Shown here: positions 13,099 to 64,000 of the stretch, one piece after another
Layout: each line of letters begins with the position of its first letter
How positions within the stretch are numbered: the stretch's first letter is position 1
Assembly (NCBI GenBank): GCA_011391405.1
Contig: JAABQQ010000271.1
Span: forward strand, 1 to 64,000
DNA: 64,000 nt
From: Gammaproteobacteria bacterium
GTDB lineage: Bacteria; Pseudomonadota; Gammaproteobacteria; Steroidobacterales; Steroidobacteraceae
Direction: 5' to 3'
Position numbers and translations under genes: made by a program
Notes under the pieces: model-generated
What the model was told of the DNA's origin: nothing
Seen by the model: the letters and a program-made list of their open reading frames with translations, nothing else
Database searches by the model: none

Positions 13099-14411
13099 TG
13101 CGTAGAAATCTCCCGGCCGCCCAGCATCACGAACGACACTCTCTCCAGCACGGCGAGATTCTGCAACGGATCACCGGGCACCGCGATGATGTCGGCGAGC
13201 TTGCCGGCCTCGACGGTGCCGACGTGGTCCTGCCAGCCGAGCAGTTCTGCATTCACGCGCGTCGCGGCCTGGATGGCCTGCATCGGCGTCATGCCGGCCT
13301 CGACCAGCAGCCCCAGTTCGCGTACCCCCTGTTTCACTGGAAAACCGACGTAGTCGGTGCCGACGGTTACGTTCACGCCCAACTTGATCGCCTTGCCCAC
13401 GGCGGCGATGTGCTGCGCACGGTACCTGCGCGTCAGCTCGTTCATCTTAGCCTGCGCCTCGCTGCCGGGCTGCTCGTTGAGGTAGTAGTCGCCGACGTAG
13501 AGCGTCGGCACCAGGTAGACGCCCTTCTCCTTCATGAGCCGGATGCTCTCATCGTCCATGAACGTGCCGTGCTCGATCGTGCGAGCGCCGGCGAGAATCG
13601 ACGCCTTGATTCCAGCCGCTGAATGCGCGTGCGCCGCAACGGGTACACCGAGGCGCGAGGCTTCGTCGACGATCGCGGACAGTTCGTCCGGGCTGAAGTG
13701 CGCGCGGTTGGGATCGTTGCCGGCCGACATCATCGCGCCGCTCGCCAGCACCTTGATCCAGTCGCTGCCATGCTTGATCTCTTCGCGCACGGCTTTGCGC
13801 ACGGCGTCGACACCGTCGACGACGAGACCGTCAGCCACCACCCGGTGCTCGGGGCCGAGGAAGTTCAGGTCCCCGCCGCCGCCGGTAATCGAGAAATAGT
13901 GCCCGGCGCCGGTCAGCCGGGGACCGATGAACAGGCCCTCCTGGATCGCCGTGCGAACGTCGAGATGCGCGTAGGCCACGTCCGCGTCGCCAAGGATGCG
14001 GACGGACGTCCATCCCGACCGCAGCATTTCCTGCACGACGTTCAATCCGCGCAGCGCCTTGTAGCCGGACGAGCGCCGCAGGTGATCGACCTGGTAATCG
14101 TCGGTCTTGATCAGCACGTGAGCATGCGCGTCGATCAGGCCCGGCAGGCAGGTGTCCTGCGACCGGTCGATCACCGTGCCAGCCGAGTCCGGCATGAAGG
14201 CGCCCACGGACACGATGCGACCGTCTTCGATGCGGATCGCGACGTCGCGCCTCGGAATAGCCGACCTGCCGTCGATGAGCGTGCCGCAGTGGAGCGTGGT
14301 GACGCCGCTGGCCAAGGGCGCCAGCGTGTCGGGTGCCGGGCCTGCTTGGGCCGACCAGGAAAGGGCCAGACAGGCGATGGTCAGCCAGGCCGTTGCTCTA
14401 GTTTGGTTCAT
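13095..14411 (-). CDS. Secreted amidohydrolase (imidazolonepropionase-like)
   Basis: LPGLIDAHAHVL; VAAHAHSAAGIKASILAGARTIEHGT; GTDYVGF; signal peptide; ATGA overlap with the cupin gene. Confidence 0.88.
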   Translation of the reverse strand: MNQTRATAWLTIACLALSWSAQAGPAPDTLAPLASGVTTLHCGTLIDGRSAIPRRDVAIRIEDGRIVSVGAFMPDSAGTVIDRSQDTCLPGLIDAHAHVLIKTDDYQVDHLRRSSGYKALRGLNVVQEMLRSGWTSVRILGDADVAYAHLDVRTAIQEGLFIGPRLTGAGHYFSITGGGGDLNFLGPEHRVVADGLVVDGVDAVRKAVREEIKHGSDWIKVLASGAMMSAGNDPNRAHFSPDELSAIVDEASRLGVPVAAHAHSAAGIKASILAGARTIEHGTFMDDESIRLMKEKGVYLVPTLYVGDYYLNEQPGSEAQAKMNELTRRYRAQHIAAVGKAIKLGVNVTVGTDYVGFPVKQGVRELGLLVEAGMTPMQAIQAATRVNAELLGWQDHVGTVEAGKLADIIAVPGDPLQNLAVLERVSFVMLGGREISTQ

Positions 14412-47650: not shown

Positions 47651-47675
47651 AAAGCCGGCTGTGCCGGCTTTTTCG
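47651..47675 (+). terminator. Rho-independent terminator downstream of infA
   Basis: aaagccggc-tgt-gccggcttttt. Confidence 0.85.
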
Positions 47676-47717
47676 TTTCTGGCTCGAGCGAGGACGATCA
47701 GGAGCCCGGACGTGAAG

Positions 47718-47793
47718 GGACTGGCTTCCGGTTCTGAGTCTGGCGAGCGGAAAGGCAGACACGCTCGCCAGACTCAGAACCGGAAGCCAGTCC
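47718..47793. repeat. Large hairpin H1 with GGAAAGGCAGACAC apical core
   Basis: Perfect 31-bp arms (47718-47748 / 47763-47793), 14-nt loop ggaaaggcagacac. Confidence 0.93.
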
Positions 47794-48071
47794 TGACGGC
47801 CTGCGCCTGAGCGGCTCGTCGGGCCAGAACGAAATGCGGCAATAGCGGGTGTGCTTCAGGCCCGACGATCCGCACGGCGCATGCAGCCGGACGGATGCAG
47901 AGGCACTCAGCGTCGGGTGGAGGGCGCGCTGCGACGGGCCAGCAGGAAGCTGATCTGGGTGCACAGGCTCAGGCTGCCCTGCCCTCGACGACGGTGCTGA
48001 CGTCGAACCCGCGGCACGGTGAACCCGGGCGCTGCCCGATGACCTTCTCCAAGTTGGCGTGCGCCGTGCGA

Positions 48072-48095
48072 CCTTTTCCGCCTGCGCGGAAAAGG
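48072..48095. repeat. Short perfect hairpin
   Basis: ccttttccgc-ctgc-gcggaaaagg. Confidence 0.85.
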
Positions 48096-48116
48096 CGCTC
48101 AGGCGCGTGACGTCCA

Positions 48117-48191
48117 GCGTCTTTTGCGGTCTCCTTTCCGGCGAGCGTGTCTGCCTTTCCGCTCGCCGGATAAGGAGACCGCAAAGGACGC
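48117..48191. repeat. Large hairpin H2, same core in opposite orientation
   Basis: Arms gcgtcttttgcggtctcctttccggcgagc / gctcgccggataaggagaccgcaaaggacgc (1-nt bulge, few mismatches); loop gtgtctgcctttcc. Confidence 0.9.
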
Positions 48192-48276
48192 CAAGGACCC
48201 TCACCCGCCCTGCAGTCAACCTCTCCCGCCGCAGCGAAAAAAGTGCAACCGGGCGCAAGCCAGACCGCGGGAGAGG

Positions 48277-50547
48277 TTACTCGAGCAGCGCGGGCTCATC
48301 CGCGCTGCGAGACTCGACCTTCAGCGCACCGTCCTCGCCGACGCTCACGAAGGCATGCCCCCCATGTTCCAGGCTGCCAAACAGCAGCTCTTCCGCGAGC
48401 GGCCGCTTGATGAACTCCTGGATGATGCGGGCCATCGGCCGCGCGCCCATCTTCGGGTCGTAGCCGCGCCTGGCGATCCACGCCCGCGCGTCTTCGTCGA
48501 TGTGCAGCTGCACGCCCTTCGTCTCGAGCTGCGCCTCGACTTCGACCAGCAGCTTGTCGACGACGCGCTGGATCGTCCGCTCGTCGAGCGGCCCGAACTG
48601 CACCACCGCGTCGAGGCGGTTGCGGAACTCCGGCGCGAACATCCTCTTGATCGCTTCGGCGCCATCGCTCGCATGGTCCTGCGTGACGAAACCAACCGAC
48701 GTGCGGCTCATGTCCGCAGCACCCGCGTTGGTCGTCATGACGATCACGACGTGGCGGAAGTCCGCCTTGCGGCCGTTGTTGTCCGTCAGCGTGCCGTGGT
48801 CCATGACCTGCAGCAGCAGGTTGAACACGTCAGGGTGCGCCTTCTCGATCTCGTCGAGCAGCAGCACGCAGTGCGGGTGCTTGGTGATCGCTTCCGTCAG
48901 CAGCCCGCCCTGGTCGAATCCAACGTAACCCGGAGGCGCGCCGATCAGCCGCGACACCGTGTGCCGCTCCATGTACTCCGACATGTCGAAGCGCACGAGT
49001 TCGACGCCCAGCGTCAACGCGAGCTGTCGCGTCACTTCCGTCTTGCCGACACCCGTCGGCCCGGCGAACAGGAACGAACCCACCGGCTTGCGCTGGTCGC
49101 CGAGGCCCGAGCGCGCCATCTTGATCGACGACGACAGCGTGTCGATCGCCTTGTCCTGGCCGTAGATCACGAGCTTCAGGTTGCGCTCGAGGTTCTTCAG
49201 CACGTCGCGGTCGTTGCTCGACACGGTTTTCGGCGGGATGCGTGCAATGCGTGCGACGACGTCTTCGATCTGTTCGACCGTCACGAACTCGGCACGCTGG
49301 TCAACCGGCTTCAACCGCTGCCGCGCGCCCGCTTCGTCGATCACGTCGATCGCCTTGTCGGGCAGGTGGCGGTCGTTGATGTGGCGCGCCGACAGCTCGG
49401 CCGCGGCCTTCAGCGCGTCGTCCGCGTACTTGACGCCGTGGTGCTCCTCGAAGCGCGCGCGCAGTCCATGCAGGATCTCGATGGTTTCCGCGACCGTGGG
49501 CTCGACCACGTCGATCTTCTGGAAGCGCCGCGTCAGCGCGTGGTCCTTCTCGAAGATGCCGCGGTATTCCTGGTACGTGGTCGAGCCGATGCAGCGCAAC
49601 TCGCCATTGGCGAGCGCCGGCTTGATCAGGTTGGACGCGTCCATCACGCCACCCGAGGCGGCACCCGCGCCAATCACCGTATGGATCTCGTCGATGAACA
49701 GGATCGCGCCCGGCTGCTTCTTGATCTCGGCGAGCACGCCCTTCAGGCGCTTCTCGAAATCGCCGCGGTACTTGGTGCCCGCGATCAGCGACCCGAGGTC
49801 GAGCGAGTAGACGGTGCTGTCCGCGAGCACGTCCGGCACCTTGCCCTCGACGATCATGCGCGCCAGGCCTTCCACCAGCGCGGTCTTGCCCACGCCCGCC
49901 TCACCCACGTACAGCGGATTGTTCTTGCGGCGGCGGCAGAGGATTTCGACGGTGCGCTCGATTTCGAGCGCGCGGCCGATGAGCGGATCGATGCGTCCTT
50001 CCTGGGCGAGCCGGTTCAGGTTGGTGGCGAACTTCTCGAGCGCGGAGGCGCCTTCCGCGTCGCGCTCCGATTCGGTCTGCGCCGGCGCTTCTTCGGCGGA
50101 GCGCGGCGCATCCTCGGACTTCGACAGCCCGTGGGAGATGAAATTGACGACGTCGAGGCGCGAGATCTCCTGCAGCCCGAGCAGGTAGGCCGCGTGCGAG
50201 TGCTTTTCGCTGAAAATCGCGACCAGCACGTTGGCAACGGCGACCTCCTTCTTGCCGCTCGACTGGACGTGGAACACGGCCCGCTGCAGCACGCGCTGGA
50301 AACCCAGCGTGGGTTGCACTTCGCGGTCGTCGTCCTGCTTGAGGCGGGGGGTGGTCTGGTCGACGAAGTCCTTGAGCTCGTTGCGCAGGCGCGTGGCGTC
50401 GGCCCCGCACGCGCGCAGGATTTCACGGACCTTGGGGGTGTCGATGATGGCCAGCAGCAGGTGCTCGACCGTCATGAATTCATGCCTGGCTTCCCGGGCG
50501 CCCTGGAAGGCCTCGTTCAGGCAGATCTCGAGTTCGCTGCTCAACAC
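48277..50547 (-). CDS. clpA: ATP-dependent Clp protease ATP-binding subunit ClpA
   Basis: MLSSELEICLNEAFQGAREARHEFMTVEHLLLAI; GEAGVGKTALVEGLA; GPTGVGKTEVTRQLA. Confidence 0.97.
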   Translation of the reverse strand: MLSSELEICLNEAFQGAREARHEFMTVEHLLLAIIDTPKVREILRACGADATRLRNELKDFVDQTTPRLKQDDDREVQPTLGFQRVLQRAVFHVQSSGKKEVAVANVLVAIFSEKHSHAAYLLGLQEISRLDVVNFISHGLSKSEDAPRSAEEAPAQTESERDAEGASALEKFATNLNRLAQEGRIDPLIGRALEIERTVEILCRRRKNNPLYVGEAGVGKTALVEGLARMIVEGKVPDVLADSTVYSLDLGSLIAGTKYRGDFEKRLKGVLAEIKKQPGAILFIDEIHTVIGAGAASGGVMDASNLIKPALANGELRCIGSTTYQEYRGIFEKDHALTRRFQKIDVVEPTVAETIEILHGLRARFEEHHGVKYADDALKAAAELSARHINDRHLPDKAIDVIDEAGARQRLKPVDQRAEFVTVEQIEDVVARIARIPPKTVSSNDRDVLKNLERNLKLVIYGQDKAIDTLSSSIKMARSGLGDQRKPVGSFLFAGPTGVGKTEVTRQLALTLGVELVRFDMSEYMERHTVSRLIGAPPGYVGFDQGGLLTEAITKHPHCVLLLDEIEKAHPDVFNLLLQVMDHGTLTDNNGRKADFRHVVIVMTTNAGAADMSRTSVGFVTQDHASDGAEAIKRMFAPEFRNRLDAVVQFGPLDERTIQRVVDKLLVEVEAQLETKGVQLHIDEDARAWIARRGYDPKMGARPMARIIQEFIKRPLAEELLFGSLEHGGHAFVSVGEDGALKVESRSADEPALLE

Positions 50548-62369: not shown

Positions 62370-63449
62370 ATGACTTCCCTGTTCGACCCGGTATCGATGA
62401 CACGCGGCCCCGGCCTGAAGAACCGCTTCATGCTGGCGCCGCTCACCAACCTGCAGAGCCACGTCGACGGCACGCTCGCTGACGACGAATACCACTGGCT
62501 GACGCTGCGTGCGCAAGGCGGCTTCGGCGCCACGATGACCTGCGCATCGCACGTCCAGGCGCAGGGACAGGGCTTTCCCGGCCAGCTCGGCTGCTGGTCG
62601 GACGCGCACCTGGCCGGATTGACACGACTTGCAGCGGGCATCAAGGCCGCAGGCAGCGCGGCTTACGTGCAACTGCATCACGCCGGCATGCGCTCGCCGC
62701 GGGACCTGATCGGTACGCAACCCGTCTGCCCGTCGGACGATGCGGAAACCGGGTCGCGCGCGCTGACGCTGGCGGAGGTCGAACAGCTGCGCGAGGACTT
62801 CATCGCAGCCGCGGTGCGCGCTGAACGCGCCGGCTTCGACGGCGCGGAGCTCCACGGCGCGCACGGCTACCTCCTGAGTCAGTTCGTGAGCAGCGCGTAC
62901 AACCGGCGCAAGGATCGATACGGCGGTTCGCTGGAGAACCGCTGCCGCATCGTGTATGAGATCATCGACGGCATCCGGGCGCGCTGCCGCCCGGACTTCA
63001 CGCTCGGCATCCGCGTTTCGCCCGAACGCTTCGCACTGCTGCTCGCCGAGATGCGCGAATTCGTGCAGGGCTTGCTGCACGACGGCCGGCTCGATTTCAT
63101 CGACCTGTCGCTGTGGGACGTGTTCAAGGAACCGAACGAGGACGGGTTCAAGTCGAAGCCGCTGGTCGACTGGTTCATGGACCTGGACCGCCGCGACGTG
63201 AAGGTCGGCGTGGCCGGCAAGATCATGGATGCGGCGACGGCGCGCAGATGCCTCGAGCACGGCGCGGATTTCGTCACGATCGGGCGTGCCGCGATCCTGC
63301 ATCACGACTTCCCTGAACGGGTGCGTGCGAACCCCGATTTTGCCGCGATGCCGCTGCCCGTGAGCGCCGGGCACCTGCGTGCGGAAGGCCTGGGCCCCGC
63401 GTTCGTCGGTTACATGAAGACCTGGAAAAGTTTCGTCGCCGAGGCGTAA
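62370..63449 (+). CDS. NADH:flavin oxidoreductase (OYE-like)
   Basis: LKNRFMLAPLTNLQSHVDGTLADDEYHWLTLRAQGGFG; AGFDGAELHGAHGYLLSQFVSSAYNRRKDRYGGSLENR. Confidence 0.93.
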   Translation: MTSLFDPVSMTRGPGLKNRFMLAPLTNLQSHVDGTLADDEYHWLTLRAQGGFGATMTCASHVQAQGQGFPGQLGCWSDAHLAGLTRLAAGIKAAGSAAYVQLHHAGMRSPRDLIGTQPVCPSDDAETGSRALTLAEVEQLREDFIAAAVRAERAGFDGAELHGAHGYLLSQFVSSAYNRRKDRYGGSLENRCRIVYEIIDGIRARCRPDFTLGIRVSPERFALLLAEMREFVQGLLHDGRLDFIDLSLWDVFKEPNEDGFKSKPLVDWFMDLDRRDVKVGVAGKIMDAATARRCLEHGADFVTIGRAAILHHDFPERVRANPDFAAMPLPVSAGHLRAEGLGPAFVGYMKTWKSFVAEA

Positions 63450-63505
63450 CCCCGGCACCGATCCCGCGGCACCGATCCCGCGCATGCGTCGCGTCGCGGG
63501 CGACC

Positions 63506-63571
63506 GGTCCGGGATCTGCCCTCGATCTTAGAAAGGCAGGCGTGTTCTCTCAGGGCGTCCGATCCGGGACC
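63506..63571. repeat. Degenerate hairpin H5, related to H1-H4
   Basis: ggtccgggatc-tgccct / agggcgtccgatccgggacc arms (bulged) around ttagaaaggcaggcgtgttc. Confidence 0.6.
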
Positions 63572-63630
63572 TACCCCCGAGCTTGGAAAGGCAGACACGC
63601 GCTCGCGGGTAGGTCCCGGATCGGACGCCC
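63553..63630. repeat. Large hairpin H3 with GGAAAGGCAGACACGC core
   Basis: 30-bp arms with one mismatch (63553-63582 / 63601-63630), 18-nt loop ttggaaaggcagacacgc. Confidence 0.93.
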
Positions 63631-63662
63631 GTGATGCGGCGCATGCAGCGTCGAGAGTGGAT

Positions 63663-63724
63663 GATCCGGAGCCTTTGCCCAAGCGCGTGTCTGCCTTTCC
63701 AAGCTTGGGGGAAGGCTCCGGATC
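63663..63724. repeat. Large hairpin H4, core in opposite orientation
   Basis: 22-bp arms with two mismatches (63663-63684 / 63703-63724), loop gcgtgtctgcctttccaa = reverse complement of the H3 loop. Confidence 0.92.
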
Positions 63725-63753
63725 GTCCGCTCGTAGCACCGCTGCGTGACCGC

Positions 63754-64000
63754 TCAGGCGCCCCAGCGGATCAGGCCGCTCCAGGCCGTAAACAGCACCA
63801 GCACGCCGAAGGCAATGCGGTACCAGGCGAACGGCACGAAGGTGTGGGTTGCGACGTAGCGGATCAGCCAGCGCACGCAGGCAAACGCCGAAACGAACGC
63901 CGCCACCATGCCGACGACCCAGATGCCGAGGTCGTCGAGCGCAAGCAGCTCGCGTTCCTTGTACAGCGAGTACAGGGAGGCAATACCGAGCGTCGGAATG
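63754..64000 (-). CDS. uppP: Undecaprenyl-diphosphatase, C-terminal part (truncated by window edge)
   Basis: Minus strand reads [81 protein letters not shown]; not in the supplied ORF track. Confidence 0.88.

Follow-up and report, generated by a model that had tools for sequence, protein, structure and literature searches.

Interspersed palindromic repeats with a fixed, oriented loop and a freely varying stem in a few related uncultured bacteria

This family of long hairpins is previously undescribed and numbers some 80 to 120 copies per genome in a few related uncultured bacteria. Its members carry a fixed loop on a free, paired stem. This combination points to recognition of the loop, at gene ends, by some component of the cell. 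The inverted hairpins H3 and H4, near the end of the 64,000-nucleotide stretch of DNA that we analysed (the window), together make up, as judged by sequence comparison, an inverted pair of reduced copies of a two-hairpin element that is dispersed in the genome. The family is best called interspersed palindromic repeats of a new variety.

H3 and H4 lie in the 304 nt between two convergent genes, an Oxidored_FMN flavoprotein gene (PF00724; + strand, stop codon at 63447-63449) upstream of H3 and a UppP/BacA gene (PF02673; - strand, stop codon at 63754-63756) beside H4. These Pfam matches agree with the placement given in the preliminary description. The features of the site are as follows.

63498-63552, + strand: decayed half-unit H0 (left arm and decayed core AGAAAGGCAGGCGTG), recognised as a direct repeat
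63553-63630, + strand: hairpin H3 (hairpin I of its unit), 30-bp stem, arms 63553-63582 and 63601-63630
63585-63599, + strand: conserved loop core of H3, GGAAAGGCAGACACG, from the exact core search
63631-63654, no strand: linker and single shared tail (GCGGCGCATGCAGCGTCGAGAG), from comparison with full units
63655-63732, - strand: hairpin H4 (hairpin I of the opposed unit), arms 63655-63684 and 63703-63732
63686-63700, - strand: conserved loop core of H4, from the exact core search

The 30-nt arms of H3 are 97% complementary, with the one mismatch first described, and enclose an 18-nt loop (TTGGAAAGGCAGACACGC). Those of H4, also 30 nt, are 87% complementary; the two mismatches reported earlier fall in the inner 22 bp, and the loop is, as claimed, the exact reverse complement of the H3 loop. 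RNA folding gave -67.0 kcal/mol for H3 and -48.4 kcal/mol for H4 (z = -9.7 and -7.4), with 0 of 200 shuffles as good. H0, which lies 55 nt upstream of H3 and is 75% identical to 63553-63607, is the first member of a 55-57-nt tandem, and its folding was no better than that of shuffles.

The 16-nt core GGAAAGGCAGACACGC is common to H3, H4, and another pair in the window, H1 and H2, as had been noticed at the outset; the core has four matches in the window against 0.00 expected. H1 and H2 are in the gap between clpA and infA.

47718-47793, + strand: hairpin H1, 32-bp perfect stem, core 47749-47763, from folding and repeat search
47803-47880, + strand: hairpin II of the H1 unit (GCGCCTGAGC...GCACGGCGC), an inverted repeat with the family pattern
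48061-48106, - strand: hairpin II of the H2 unit, from the hairpin II pattern search
48114-48194, - strand: hairpin H2, core 48146-48160, from folding

Both H1 and H2 keep hairpin II, unlike H3 and H4. The pair is present at this gap in all three species compared (the window's own genome, G000, and its congeners G004 and G005), with differing stems, and there is no H1/H2 in the clpA-infA gap of G001, G003, G006, and G007. A complete U-tract terminator of infA (AAAGCCGGC TGT GCCGGCTTTTTCG) is found at window positions 47651-47679, before H1; thus, H1 is not required to end the infA transcript. Between clpA and H2 there is a distinct small repeat, CCTCTCCCGC...GCGGGAGAGG (window 48218-48278), and several other sites have a similar one separating the hairpin from the stop codon.

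The preliminary description took the stems to be unrelated. This was wrong, since over a 68-nt stretch the complementarity between H3 and H4 is 81%, and stems from the whole family can be aligned in a single register and have a common consensus. The stems descend from one ancestor and have diverged through paired changes.

A full unit consists, on one strand, of hairpin I (about 30 bp), a linker of about 10 nt, hairpin II, and a tail (A[TA]GCAGCGTC). Hairpin I has a median of 32 aligned pairs, with stems of 28-32 bp. Hairpin II has the form GCGCC-TGA-GC...GC-AC-GGCGC, in which the inner stem is variable and the TGA/AC internal loop is fixed. It is missing from both H3 and H4, where the tail is joined at the GGCGC repeat; units without hairpin II would be accounted for by the GGCGC repeats on either side of it. 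The family also includes half-units (core, short spacer, and left arm), which form tandem arrays at 57-60 nt, and 37 of 46 half-copies have the next core 57-60 nt on. The second hairpin, the tail, and the tandem half-units, none of which the preliminary description had noticed, show H3/H4 to be a reduced copy. In several half-unit arrays, left arms belonging to different classes meet at the core, which therefore seems to be a recombination junction. At L038 (1000-1750), G000 has lost hairpin I and retains a short palindromic foot (GCAGGCGG/CCGCTTGC) and hairpin II; G004 and G005 keep hairpin I there.

The exact core GGAAAGGCAGACACG occurs 76 times in G000 (3.54 Mb, incomplete), 37 times forward and 39 times reverse, and the reversed core used as a control had no exact match in this genome. 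When up to two mismatches were allowed, there were 103 matches against 2 for the control. Two of the eight congeners contain 43 and 55 exact copies; none was found in the other six, nor in 51 more distant genomes. With a covariance model built from 107 copies, each of the nine genomes in the genus was found to contain related hairpins. The loops of these hairpins are CGAAGAAGACATGC-like in G001, G006, G007, and G008 and GAAARCCGACATG in G002 and G003, and the frame GAAR...GACAYG is common to the species-specific loops. Hairpin II, sought by exact pattern in 196 relatives, matched in 12 genomes, with multiple copies only within the genus; matches outside it were one per genome, at chance level. 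Among named genomes the matches were mostly chance, with several in the MAG LacPavin_0920_SED3_MAG_66_26, apparently G004. Copies are found at contig ends in G000 (C86:7, C56:20, and C260:65678, among several), and the hairpins thus probably break short-read assemblies, so that the copy number is underestimated.

Minor loop types (CAGGAAACATGC; CCGGAAAAATG) accompany hairpin II at L332 4062-4138 and at L315, about 13290-13370, and coexist with the main loop type in G000 and G004. In the congener G007, contig C17 (L119 1501-2450) holds five two-hairpin units in about 1 kb, at a spacing of about 250 nt, and the long hairpins of these units are very similar to one another.

Against Rfam 15, only a tRNA in the window scored above the gathering threshold, and at a relaxed threshold loci outside the window gave only sub-threshold generic miRNA-like hairpins. 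The core did not occur in a text search of 5.4 million papers, and a literature search for repeats with a fixed loop and a free stem returned nothing matching. The element DNA had no match among plasmids and phages, and the core was not found in viral contigs.

In both G004 and G005, the gap that corresponds to H3/H4 is empty; in G004 its two stop codons lie 4 nt from each other. At this locus, the three species are all equally distant from one another (about 89%), and no uppP stands beside the flavoprotein gene in those congeners that have a homologue of it. Because of this equidistance, and because the outgroups do not have the gene pair, the difference fits gain or loss alike. A possible target duplication, GCGT(G/A)A, was seen at one site only. 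At most of the orthologous sites compared, both species carry a copy, and the number of half-units often differs between them. The segments are therefore not a conserved ancestral intergenic sequence free of absence polymorphism and of other copies. They belong, as the preliminary description proposed, to a repeat family rather than to a single palindrome, given the 76 cores in the genome, the copies in two sister species, the strong covariation, and the presence/absence difference.

It is somewhat unlikely that the copies are non-autonomous mobile elements of the REP/BIME or MITE type that a hairpin-recognising transposase moves in trans, with gene ends as harmless insertion sites. They are intergenic, dimeric, palindromic, and near gene 3' ends, like REPs (PMC3733652); stems of one class (class A) are similar at non-orthologous sites; and the H3/H4 site is filled in one species and empty in two. 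However, one would expect the copies of such an element to have the same stem rather than stems altered by paired changes, and the frequent occupation of orthologous sites in the sister genome also argues against it. Y1_Tnp (PF01797, the RAYT family) has no match in G000 or G004, which are both copy-rich (and, like the other genomes, incomplete), and the six matches in other congeners, one each in G005 and five more, have no core nearby; we rejected a Y1 transposase as the mover, as it is not associated with the copies. The tags of REP elements are also missing from the feet of the hairpins: among 142, the upstream foot had GTAG in 9, GGAG in 6, and CGTC in 7, and the downstream foot had them in 1, 2, and 14, respectively.

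We classified the placement of 53 sites on longer stretches, mostly of 5-20 kb, by using a codon-usage gene caller; the stretches were chosen largely for holding copies, and the gene calls were Pfam-checked at some loci only. Nearly all copies are outside the called genes. At tandem-gene sites where the calls were reliable and there was no inverted partner, the unit was sense to the flanking genes in 9 of 9. Every site with opposed hairpins has the order + then -, with hairpin I outside and hairpin II inside, and single units between convergent genes are nearer their sense gene whenever the distances clearly differ. Often the left arm directly adjoins the stop codon or overlaps with it, as in TGA-GGGCGTTCG. 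A first pass on short loci had given 16 antisense cases, which the longer stretches show to be mostly members of inverted pairs. The exceptions are a few sites between divergent genes (for example, L339 10752/11168); one hairpin pair, like its ortholog, is flanked by divergent genes for an aminopeptidase and a poly(A)-polymerase-family member. The genes between opposed hairpins are ordinary host genes, and their reading as cargo was rejected. Among the element-bearing genes compared, U-tract terminators are too rare for an avoidance signal either way.

Covariation over the copies, the check suggested with the preliminary description, involves all 32 stem pairs: 92.3% are paired, compared with 31-46% when the arms are slid. 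The covariation score is 0.69 against 0.19 for shuffled data, and both sides of a pair are changed in 886 cells against 246. Of the pairs in 21 orthologous hairpins, 490 were unchanged, 47 were altered on one side, and 51 were altered on both sides and remained paired. Between the three species, the stem bases of orthologous hairpins differ by 12.7% and the flanks by about 16%. In contrast, the loops differ at 4 of 375 bases (25 hairpins), a figure slightly flattered by the search, which admitted copies with no more than two loop mismatches; the loop is about 15-fold better conserved than the flanks.

A sense-strand RNA regulatory element, that is, a terminator, an mRNA-stabilising 3' hairpin, or a site for a global RNA-binding protein, would account for the sense orientation after stop codons, the fixed loop on a covarying stem, and the two consecutive hairpins, and is nevertheless improbable. 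On the sense strand, A-C mismatches in the stem outnumber G-T mismatches by 62 to 31 (alignment columns 7-34, shared ancestry removed, p = 0.0017), although an RNA hairpin of the sense strand ought to put up with G-U better than with A-C, so selection for sense RNA pairing alone does not fit. The A-C excess could mean that the other strand has a role, or that G-T is removed by repair from extruded sense-strand hairpins. Neither hairpin I nor hairpin II is followed by a T-run in the consensus, H1 comes after a complete terminator, and no Rfam family is above threshold. Rho-independent terminators, including the uptake-sequence terminators of Neisseriaceae and Pasteurellaceae, also form hairpins after stop codons, in many cases between convergent genes. 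Unlike these terminators, the present family has no T-run, its conserved word is in the loop and not in the arms, it has about 80 copies and not many hundreds, and its stems greatly exceed the length required.

It is documented that template switching can maintain the pairing of stems (PMC8794818), and it also inverts spacers (PMC8604942). Its signature is seen in the family, in which 51 of the 98 changed pairs are compensated, the compensated changes cluster (14 adjacent against 8.4 in shuffles, p = 0.027), and one inversion is found. This inversion, at L063 2864-2996, is likely a spacer inversion and is the only one among 58 copies: the orientation of the loop relative to hairpin II is fixed in the other 57. 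As template switching inverts spacers, the 57:1 bias means that loop orientation is probably selected. On the sequence comparisons made here, the observed pattern of change is the one that arm recopying by template switching together with selection on the loop would predict. Gene conversion could be an alternative source of the uniformity of the loop.

The family thus resembles template-switch quasi-palindromes (PMC8794818, PMC8604942) in its near-neutral paired changes, clustered double changes, and single spacer inversion. It differs from them in being dispersed and in having a fixed, oriented loop, and homogenisation alone is insufficient. It is very improbable that the family is a pure DNA phenomenon, in which functionless quasi-palindromes from a few ancestors were homogenised by template switching and conversion. 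Near-neutral change of pairs with clustered double changes, the wholesale replacement of the stem at some orthologous sites (for example, H1), the loop inversion, and the hairpin deletion in G000 with its foot left behind are all in keeping with it. The better keeping of the loop and its fixed orientation, the strict strand rule relative to genes, and loops that differ between species yet keep the GAAR...GACAYG frame all speak against it.

The likeness to REP, BIME, and REPIN elements (GTAG and CGTC families; PMC3733652, PMC2817692) is broader. These are also dispersed intergenic palindromes with about 100 copies and inverted dimers, placed near gene 3' ends, often between convergent genes, and restricted to a genus or species. 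However, REP stems are 5-13 bp (PMC3733652), as against 28-32 bp here, and unlike REP/BIME, the present family has a fixed 15-nt loop with a freely varying stem, a second hairpin with a fixed internal loop, and 57-nt tandem half-units. Because of the stem length, the missing tag, the fixed loop, and the second hairpin, we have not filed the family as REP.

The explanation that we tentatively favour, with a little less than even confidence, is that the oriented loop is shown at gene 3' ends for a trans-acting factor and that the arms are matched in part by template switching. The stem would be a spacer or handle, and the loop would be bound by a putative factor, a protein or, less likely, an RNA, either at the transcript 3' end or on an extruded DNA strand. 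The bound loop may mark or protect transcript ends or separate convergent transcription units, much in the way proposed for REP elements. During replication, one arm may be recopied from the other by template switching, at least partly, and the near-neutral evolution of pairing would then follow from this proposed recopying. Copies may change and spread along the shared loop core, by way of tandem 57-nt half-units and chimeric hairpins, and may be lost by hairpin deletion. Several observations count against this explanation: the A-C excess among stem mismatches, the few sites between divergent genes, the infA terminator ahead of H1, the lack of a T-run after either hairpin, and gene conversion as an alternative source of loop uniformity. 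It is unlikely that a genus-specific protein binds the loop at gene ends chromosome-wide and co-evolves with the species-specific loops, which would amount to a genome-wide system for marking gene ends, with template-switched stems and selection on the loop only.

In this family, the usual picture of bacterial palindromic repeats is reversed, as it is the loop that is fixed and oriented, and the stem that varies freely. With about 100 natural replicates per genome, orthologous in three species, it bears on whether selection or template switching accounts for paired changes in stems. The invariant loop predicts a putative ligand that would act at gene ends.
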